Positions 51,955-54,302 of a stretch of DNA of 64,000 nucleotides are shown in pieces. The stretch is from Streptomyces violaceusniger Tu 4113 (GTDB taxonomy: Bacteria; Actinomycetota; Actinomycetes; Streptomycetales; Streptomycetaceae). The notes under the pieces were generated by a model. It did not search any database, had not been told where the DNA came from, and saw nothing but the letters and a program-made list of their open reading frames with translations. Position numbers and translations under genes: made by a program. Location: positions 868,001-932,000 of the forward strand of contig NC_015957.1 of assembly GCF_000147815.2 (NCBI RefSeq), given 5' to 3'. Positions within the stretch are counted from its first letter, which is position 1. Each line of letters starts with the position of its first letter.

Positions 51955-52593
51955 TCAGCAGCGGCATAGCGTCACCGCCAGTCGGAAGCCGGCCGCGGCC
52001 CCGGCCAGGGCGGTGGCGTCCGCTCGCGGCACCGTCAGCACCACCAGCGCCCCGCCGCCGTCCATCCCTTCGTCCAGCGCGCTGTCGCTGCTCGCCTCCG
52101 CACCGGGCTCCGGCGCGCCGCCGTCGGTCGTCGAGCGGCCGCTCCGGGAACCCGGCACCTGGGCCACCCGGACCCCACGGGCGACCACCCGTGCCGTGGC
52201 ACCGGACGACCCGGTCCGTGTGGCGCCCGGGAGCGGGGTGGCCAGCACATCCACCCGGTCACCGGGGTGCAGCAGCCGCACCGCCGCCGCGTCGGCGATC
52301 CGGACCGGCGCCGACACCATGGCCGGGATCGGGCCGCCCCGACGCTCCTCGCCCGCCGGAGCGGGCACCCGCGAGGACTCCGCGTCCGTGTGGCCCTGTC
52401 CGGGCGGTGCCGCGGCCGCGAGTGCGGCGGCTGTCAGCGCCAGCCCCGCCGCCATCGCACGGCGCCGCCGCCGCACGGCCCGCCGCAGCCGGAATCCGCC
52501 GGAGCGCTCGGTGCGCACCGGATCGAAGCGTGGCACCGCACGGGCCGGGGGAGCGGAGCGGGGTAACGCGAGAGTGGGGGACGGATGGGACAT
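51955..52593 (-). CDS. SAF/CpaB-like membrane protein
   Basis: A basic N-terminus (RLRRAVRRRRRAMAAGLALT) precedes one hydrophobic segment. An extracytoplasmic domain follows with APVRIADAAAVRLLHPGDRV and DVLATPL, then VVARGVRVAQVPGSRSG and LVVLTVPRADATALAGAAAG: the SAF plus RcpC/CpaB layout seen in pilus and flagellar basal-body assembly proteins. A Gly/Ser/Asp-rich insert splits the CpaB domain. No tad pilus genes are nearby, so the role is unclear. Confidence 0.75.
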   Translation of the reverse strand: MSHPSPTLALPRSAPPARAVPRFDPVRTERSGGFRLRRAVRRRRRAMAAGLALTAAALAAAAPPGQGHTDAESSRVPAPAGEERRGGPIPAMVSAPVRIADAAAVRLLHPGDRVDVLATPLPGATRTGSSGATARVVARGVRVAQVPGSRSGRSTTDGGAPEPGAEASSDSALDEGMDGGGALVVLTVPRADATALAGAAAGFRLAVTLCRC

Positions 52594-53719: not shown

Positions 53720-54100
53720 TCAGGCGGCCGAACTCGACGACGAAGACGACGAGGAGGACGCCGAGGACGACGAAGACCCGGACGACGAAGACCCGGACGA
53801 CGAAGACGTCGAGGAAGAGGACGAGGAAGAAGAGTCCGAGGACGAGGACGAGGAAGACGACGAGTCGGAGCTGTCGCTCTTCGCCGCCGGCTTGCTGGAA
53901 CCGCCGCTCGTGCTGCTGGAAGAGGAGCGGCTGTCGTTCCGGTAGAACCCGGAGCCCTTGAACACGATGCCGACCGCGGAGAACACCTTCTTCAGGCGTC
54001 CCGTGCAGTTGGGGCACTCGGTGAGCGCGTCGTCGGTGAACTTCTGCACCGCCTCGAGGCCCTCGCCGCACTCGGTGCACTGGTACTGGTAGGTCGGCAC
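53720..54100 (-). CDS. FmdB-type zinc ribbon protein with disordered Ser tail, Ruc-like chaperone candidate
   Basis: From GTG 54100, which has a strong AGGAGGAAG site, the protein reads PTYQYQCTECGEGLEAVQKF, then TECPNCTGRLKKVFS: two CxxC pairs of an FmdB zinc ribbon. After about residue 60 it becomes a low-complexity tail of some 65 residues dominated by Ser runs with scattered Asp, Gly and Lys, surely disordered. M. tuberculosis Ruc (Rv0991c) has the same zinc-ribbon-plus-disordered-tail design, is a redox-activated chaperone and is under HrcA. A CIRCE element sits directly upstream here, supporting orthology. Confidence 0.8.
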   Translation of the reverse strand: MPTYQYQCTECGEGLEAVQKFTDDALTECPNCTGRLKKVFSAVGIVFKGSGFYRNDSRSSSSSTSGGSSKPAAKSDSSDSSSSSSSSSDSSSSSSSSTSSSSGSSSSGSSSSSASSSSSSSSSSAA

Positions 54101-54110
54101 GTTCTTCCTC

Positions 54111-54137
54111 CTGGCACTCTCACTCAATGAGTGCTAA
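54111..54137 (-). promoter_or_regulatory. CIRCE element (HrcA operator)
   Basis: On the minus strand the sequence is TTAGCACTC, 9 nt, GAGTGCCAG. The left arm and the spacing are exactly consensus (TTAGCACTC-N9-GAGTGCTAA); the right arm has 7 of 9 matches. It ends 10 bp before the GTG start, overlapping the Shine-Dalgarno edge, so HrcA binding would block both promoter escape and the leader. Confidence 0.85.
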
Positions 54138-54302
54138 CGACGCTCCATAGTGCAGTATTCCTGCGCGTCAGTCCACTGGGACGGGATGTACGGTGATCGA
54201 ACCCACCGTCCGAGGCCCGCTCCCGGCTCCCGCTCCCGGCTCCCGTTCCGGGCCCTCGCGGACCCCCGGCGGGCCCCCGCTCCCGCCCCCCAGCCCGCCC
54301 CC

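Follow-up and report, generated by a model that had tools for sequence, protein, structure and literature searches.

The gene at positions 53720 to 54100 (minus strand) of the window, by which we mean the whole 64-kb stretch of DNA analysed here, is best read from sequence comparison as a Streptomyces-type orthologue of ruc (Rv0991c) of Mycobacterium tuberculosis, and its promoter appears to couple a switch for heat shock with one that resembles a switch for oxidative stress. We consider it likely that the gene is controlled by both HrcA and SigR and that it encodes an oxidation-activated holdase, probably cleared by ClpXP. The gene is a sound member of a known chaperone kind. The sites, their conservation and the anatomy of the gene and its product were observed directly and are as follows.

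53720..54100, minus strand: ruc orthologue (FmdB/TIGR02605 family), GTG start at 54100, 126 aa, stop included.
53723..53728, minus strand: C-terminal Ala-Ala, a candidate ClpXP degron from its conservation in the genus.
53723..53932, minus strand: low-complexity tail, residues 57-126, 52 Ser in 70 residues, partly 12/15-bp tandem repeats.
53927..53953, minus strand: SGFYRNDSR segment, residues 50-58, from the alignment and motif count.
53954..54100, minus strand: zinc-ribbon domain, residues 1-49 with C8, C11, C29 and C32, from the sequence, PF09723 and the alignment.
54107..54112, minus strand: AGGAGG Shine-Dalgarno sequence, overlapping the last two bases of CIRCE.
54111..54137, minus strand: CIRCE operator, TTAGCACTC-N9-GAGTGCCAG, with 16/18 arm bases matching.
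54136..54138, minus strand: SigR-type -10 GTT, its TT being the first two bases of CIRCE.
54147..54152, minus strand: putative vegetative -10, CACTAT, with the CA and AT columns conserved in 23/23 and the pattern chosen post hoc.
54157..54161, minus strand: SigR-type -35 GGAAT, 18 bases before GTT, invariant in 23/23.
54170..54175, minus strand: putative vegetative -35, TGGACT, 17 bp before CACTAT, the pattern chosen post hoc.
54191..54198, minus strand: conserved octamer from the alignment, GATCACCG in the window and GGTCACCG in most relatives.

The product carries an N-terminal zinc ribbon with CxxC pairs at C8/C11 and C29/C32, separated by 17 residues. It matched TIGR02605 at 66.7 bits and PF09723 at 48.8 bits, above the curated cut-offs of 31.3 and 34.4, respectively, which bears out the claim of an earlier, sequence-only reading that an FmdB-type protein with two CxxC pairs lies behind the CIRCE element. 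Among 33 aligned orthologues the four cysteines were invariant, as were G49, G51, F52, Y53 and D56, among others, and the GFY motif, residues 51-53 just after the ribbon, was found at all 161 loci (155 different genes). A phmmer search for a relative of the ribbon with a solved structure returned three weak matches, the best of which (E = 0.0086) covered 12 residues of a zinc-finger protein; none was credible. Two other TIGR02605 proteins are encoded in the same genome (L036 and L037), one with a Gly/Cys tail and one with a His-rich tail, and there was no CIRCE at their places, and no GFY, Ser tail or Ala-Ala end in either protein.

The neighbours scoring above the NCBIfam cut-offs were mscL, S-methyl-5'-thioadenosine phosphorylase, a potassium/proton antiporter, 5-formyl-THF cyclo-ligase, galU, moeA/glp and moaC, while acylase-like and rimJ-like neighbours gave weak matches below cut-off and the neighbour at 51958-52593 gave no NCBIfam match. 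We take mscL, the cyclo-ligase, galU, moeA and rimJ to be common to the gene order of the window and that around Rv0991c.

On the minus strand, positions 54137 to 54111 read TTAGCACTC-ATTGAGTGA-GAGTGCCAG, with 10 bases between the end of this element and the GTG start. It is the sole site in the 64-kb window within three mismatches of the perfect CIRCE repeat, from which it differs at two (mean of 0.00 such sites in 100 shuffles), so the operator that had been described as ending 10 bp from the start codon is real. The region first singled out, 53720..54137, covered the gene and CIRCE and left out the promoter elements just upstream (54136-54175), and the sequence-only reading mentions neither the SigR-type promoter nor the Ala-Ala end. 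The genome holds a single hrcA (340.9 bits) and four CIRCE-like places within three mismatches, namely one before groES-groEL1 (L001), a pair before groEL2 (L003/L004) and the one at the ruc gene. With the pattern reversed as a control, two sites likewise passed this threshold, and the weakest three-mismatch match was for this reason not counted alone. Judged by the operator pattern, the genes preceded by CIRCE are the same set as the HrcA targets named in M. tuberculosis, groES, groEL1, groEL2 and Rv0991c (PMC8223512).

The operator was also followed across relatives, a check that the sequence-only reading had called for. In a class-wide draw of 296 genomes, 41 had a CIRCE just ahead of a start with (M/V)PTY, including 28/28 of the genus of the window, by a strict pattern that undercounts. 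Both arms were invariant in 23/23 same-genus sequences, the search pattern itself having fixed 16 of the 18 arm bases. For the other families we picked 62 genomes from the class draw by hand, with each family represented by one to four, and 59 of these contained one orthologue at an E value of 1e-8 or better. The counts below are based on 58 of the 59, with L131 (CIRCE 15/18) dropped as its contig ends inside the gene. A CIRCE with at least 14/18 matching arm bases preceded 48 of the 58, as compared with a maximum of 13/18 in 20 rounds in which the 200 bases upstream of each of the 161 loci were shuffled as mononucleotides. The remaining ten orthologues had no clear CIRCE (8-12/18; L111, L116, L134, L136, L141, L148, L149, L156, L158 and L159). 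Matches to hrcA were obtained in 59/62 other-family genomes, and the three without a match are 72-80% complete. Loss of hrcA was rejected as the cause of the missing operators: all ten such genomes have an hrcA match (split into two pieces in G025), and control was therefore lost or never gained at these ten genes. Taken together, the conserved CIRCE, the presence of hrcA and the additional CIRCE elements at groES-groEL1 and groEL2 support the proposed membership of the HrcA regulon, and suggest that the control of ruc by HrcA is ancient among actinomycetes. The CIRCE site of the ruc orthologue may, we presume, already stand in regulon databases.

Directly upstream of CIRCE, and sharing two bases with it, lies GGAATA-N17-GTT, which fits the SigH consensus measured in M. 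tuberculosis, GGAAYR-N17-18-GTT (PMC4803200). The table of SigH-dependent genes in the same paper gives Rv0991c a value of 40.3, and the SigH and HrcA sites of M. tuberculosis ruc are reported to overlap (PMC7448276). To the extent that sequence can tell, the regulatory logic matches the one reported there and is kept in most of the family. The merged promoter, defined as GGAAY-N16..20-GTT joined to CIRCE and followed by the start, was present in 258/297 family genomes representing 14/17 genera; the 28 class-draw genomes from the genus of the window all had it. Of the 39 family genomes without it, 36 have an orthologue, all preceded by a CIRCE at 15 or 16/18; in 25 of these the site is one base off (GGAAAT-N18-GTT) and 11 have lost the SigR-type site.

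In the genus sample, for which 23 of the 28 sequences were aligned after selection by CIRCE and start regardless of the SigR site, each base of GGAAT was conserved in 23/23, against 10-17/23 for the six columns before it and 17-20/23 for the four after it. In 790 kb of strand sampled from the same genome GGAAT-N18-GTT turned up 3 times, so that its presence precisely here is unlikely to be due to chance. The sigR gene of the genome (356.3 bits) is itself preceded, some 300 bp ahead of the matched region, by the same SigR-type motif, and GGAAY-N17..19-GTT was absent from both strands of the 3-kb loci of groES and groEL2 (L001 and L003). Outside the family, a strict SigR-type site was found before 5/58 orthologues (shuffle mean 0.04), four of them in family f4 (4/4 genera sampled), and a looser pattern before 7/58 (0.5 in shuffles); the merger is therefore a trait of the family and of f4, not of the class.

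A vegetative-type pair, TGGACT-N17-CACTAT, was present in 23/23 of the genus sample and 13/48 elsewhere, the pattern having been picked after viewing the data. Farther upstream, each base of the GGTCACCG octamer was conserved in 21-22/23 of the genus, about 60 bp before CIRCE in the relatives and upstream of the promoter.

The C-terminal tail is mostly Ser, as had been noted, with 52 of its 70 residues (57-126). The Ser fraction of this tail, 0.74, is at the top of a range of 0.35-0.74 (mean 0.60) in the 23-member genus sample, where tail length varied from 44 to 75, and the tail is of the same kind as the others. Tails of the 58 other-family orthologues contained 0.06-0.69 Ser (mean 0.41), and those of the four f4 members 0.52-0.65. 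The suggestion that an unusual Ser-rich tail had replaced the mycobacterial one did not hold, given the mean of 41% Ser in the 58 tails and the fact that Rv0991c is itself named 'Conserved serine rich protein' in a table (PMC4803200). Hydrophobic residues (V, I, L, M, F, Y or W) were counted at 0/1279 positions after residue 56 in the 23-member genus sample and at 26/3380 after residue 58 in the 58 other-family orthologues; by composition, the region is hydrophilic and structureless as in Ruc.

The protein ends in a free, conserved Ala-Ala, as in ClpXP substrates. Of the genus members, 22/23 had this end (mean 0.35 and maximum 4 in 5000 shuffles) on an otherwise drifting tail, and the count rose to 26/27 when four same-genus genomes without the SigR site were added. 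For comparison, 3/192 roughly called genes in samples of the same genome end in Ala-Ala. Outside the family it was found in 22/58 orthologues (shuffle mean 1.6, maximum 7) and was absent in 36/58. In a second genus of the family, g127, the count was 0/20, with many proteins ending in AAS or AAG, and the Ala-Ala end is therefore bound to lineages. The conserved end may mark the protein for destruction by ClpXP, by analogy with a Streptomyces sigma factor described below.

From these observations we infer that the same HrcA/SigH-type control, zinc binding and chaperone activity operate in this organism, along with a vegetative promoter, a role for GFY and a ClpXP step. In unstressed cells, HrcA on CIRCE would cover the SigR -10 and the probable start region, silencing the SigR promoter and probably also the vegetative one. 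Heat would remove HrcA, and thiol oxidation would free SigR from the anti-sigma factor RsrA, so that SigR could drive the gene together with its redox regulon. The product is predicted to bind zinc through C8/C11/C29/C32; upon oxidation disulphides would form, with zinc presumably released by analogy with Hsp33, and the oxidised protein would act as a holdase, maintaining its clients in a soluble state for DnaK, as is reported of Ruc from M. tuberculosis. The tail, being almost without hydrophobic residues, would serve as a solubilising disordered chain, leaving the GFY motif next to the ribbon as the best candidate for a hydrophobic contact, and ClpXP would probably clear the protein through its Ala-Ala end.

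A more specific version of this scheme is that Ruc of Streptomyces is a self-limiting chaperone, made only when heat and/or thiol oxidation lift the merged HrcA-SigR switch, holding oxidised clients via GFY and not the Ser tail, and cleared by ClpXP, perhaps with its clients, via Ala-Ala. We offer it as a speculation more apt to fail than to hold; if true, the tail would be a degradation handle on a solubilising spacer.

Several observations count against the explanation by a doubly controlled, oxidation-activated holdase: 10/58 other-family orthologues have no CIRCE, 39/297 family genomes have no merged promoter, the strict SigR-type site precedes 5/58 orthologues outside the family, and the Ala-Ala end is absent in 20/20 of g127, in 36/58 outside the family and, judged by a primer, in M. 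tuberculosis Ruc. A stress protein with a zinc ribbon under HrcA/SigR control might have a main job other than that of a holdase, for example as a ClpXP adaptor for damaged proteins or as a zinc/thiol reservoir. An end that is nearly fixed in the genus sample on a drifting tail would fit such a role, as would the use of C-terminal Ala-Ala as a ClpXP signal in Streptomyces sigma-AntA (PMC7142297). We nevertheless find it improbable, as the cysteine numbering and reported regulation equal those of M. tuberculosis Ruc, for which an oxidation-dependent anti-aggregation activity is reported (PMC7448276). It is scarcely credible that the CIRCE, as a chance palindrome or a decayed one, is not under HrcA control: the reversed control pattern also yields two sites within three mismatches in the genome, but the site at ruc has 2 mismatches only, stands right before the start and recurs across many families at match levels that shuffled sequences (maximum 13/18) do not reach.

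A further alternative concerns the tail only and is compatible with the holdase explanation, namely that the Ser run is a functionless product of replication slippage in a GC-rich repeat. The tail in the window contains 12- and 15-bp tandem repeats (53735-53864), and TCT makes up 9 of its 52 Ser codons, whereas 1.2% of the Ser codons are TCT in 192 genes sampled from the same genome. Repeats and many TCT codons suggest recent slippage; the repeats probably represent a recent expansion and do help to shape this particular tail, and the variation in tail length (44 to 75) points the same way. Against this, in the genus sample some 22% of the Ser codons in the tails are AGY, so that both unlinked Ser codon families are used, and the absence of hydrophobics (0/1279) and the nearly fixed Ala-Ala end are also at odds with a functionless product. 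For these three reasons pure slippage was rejected as insufficient to explain the origin of the tail, and a tail devoid of function seems a poor bet.

Among the matches listed in our literature searches, no paper treated ruc of Streptomyces as a target of HrcA or SigR, and the excerpts of PMC10012870 and PMC9765437 contained nothing on ruc or on Ala-Ala ends. A SigR ChIP-chip study of S. coelicolor (Kim et al. 2012), cited in the excerpt of PMC3902916, may already include this gene. Within the literature searched, three points may be new, namely the joined SigR and CIRCE sites of this family, the end in Ala-Ala and the observation on GFY. On this reading, a chaperone characterised so far in a single pathogen would also occur in the harmless, tractable Streptomyces. 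Claims open to test are the merged promoter for heat and redox control, the ClpXP degron and a revised view of which part of Ruc binds clients.

In comparison with known systems, the protein belongs with the TIGR02605 family (CxxC_CxxC_SSSS)/PF09723, which it matches above the cut-off (66.7 bits vs 31.3) and whose model name itself records Ser runs. The HrcA/CIRCE regulon described for Streptomyces includes groES-groEL1 and groEL2 (PMC2687793). The operator is the same and both known targets have a CIRCE in this genome, but the excerpt of PMC2687793 does not mention ruc among the targets. In sigma-AntA, also from Streptomyces, the C-terminal Ala-Ala is a ClpXP recognition signal kept in 67/71 orthologues; with Asp-Asp in its place, the protein was no longer degraded by E. 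coli ClpXP in vitro and was more abundant in vivo (PMC7142297). As an analogy the parallel with the Ruc end is strong, with a conserved Ala-Ala-COO- in 67/71 there and 22/23 in the genus sample here; however, sigma-AntA is a sigma factor and not a chaperone, and its degradation is demonstrated whereas that of Ruc is predicted.

The closest parallel is Ruc of M. tuberculosis, the only organism in which HrcA and SigH control, zinc binding and oxidation-dependent chaperone activity have been published. The likeness, which is based on mutant numbers and a primer of the M. tuberculosis gene, extends to the cysteines at positions 8, 11, 29 and 32, as numbered in its mutants, to a ribbon that ends in AVG[IV]VFKG at residue 49, as read from the primer, and to an HrcA site that overlaps a SigH/SigR-type promoter (all PMC7448276), as well as to the Ser-rich tail (PMC4803200). 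With these cysteine numbers, and with CIRCE before the orthologues of other families, the comparison supports the identification as the Streptomyces Ruc that the sequence-only reading had proposed. The published Ruc truncation keeps residues 1-49 and is inactive (PMC7448276); by the numbering of the orthologues it would also lack GFY (51-53), and the loss of activity may therefore not be due to the tail alone. The two proteins differ at the very end, which is Ala-Val in M. tuberculosis according to the primer (PMC7448276) and Ala-Ala in the window, and, unlike its counterpart, the gene in the window has a probable extra vegetative promoter.
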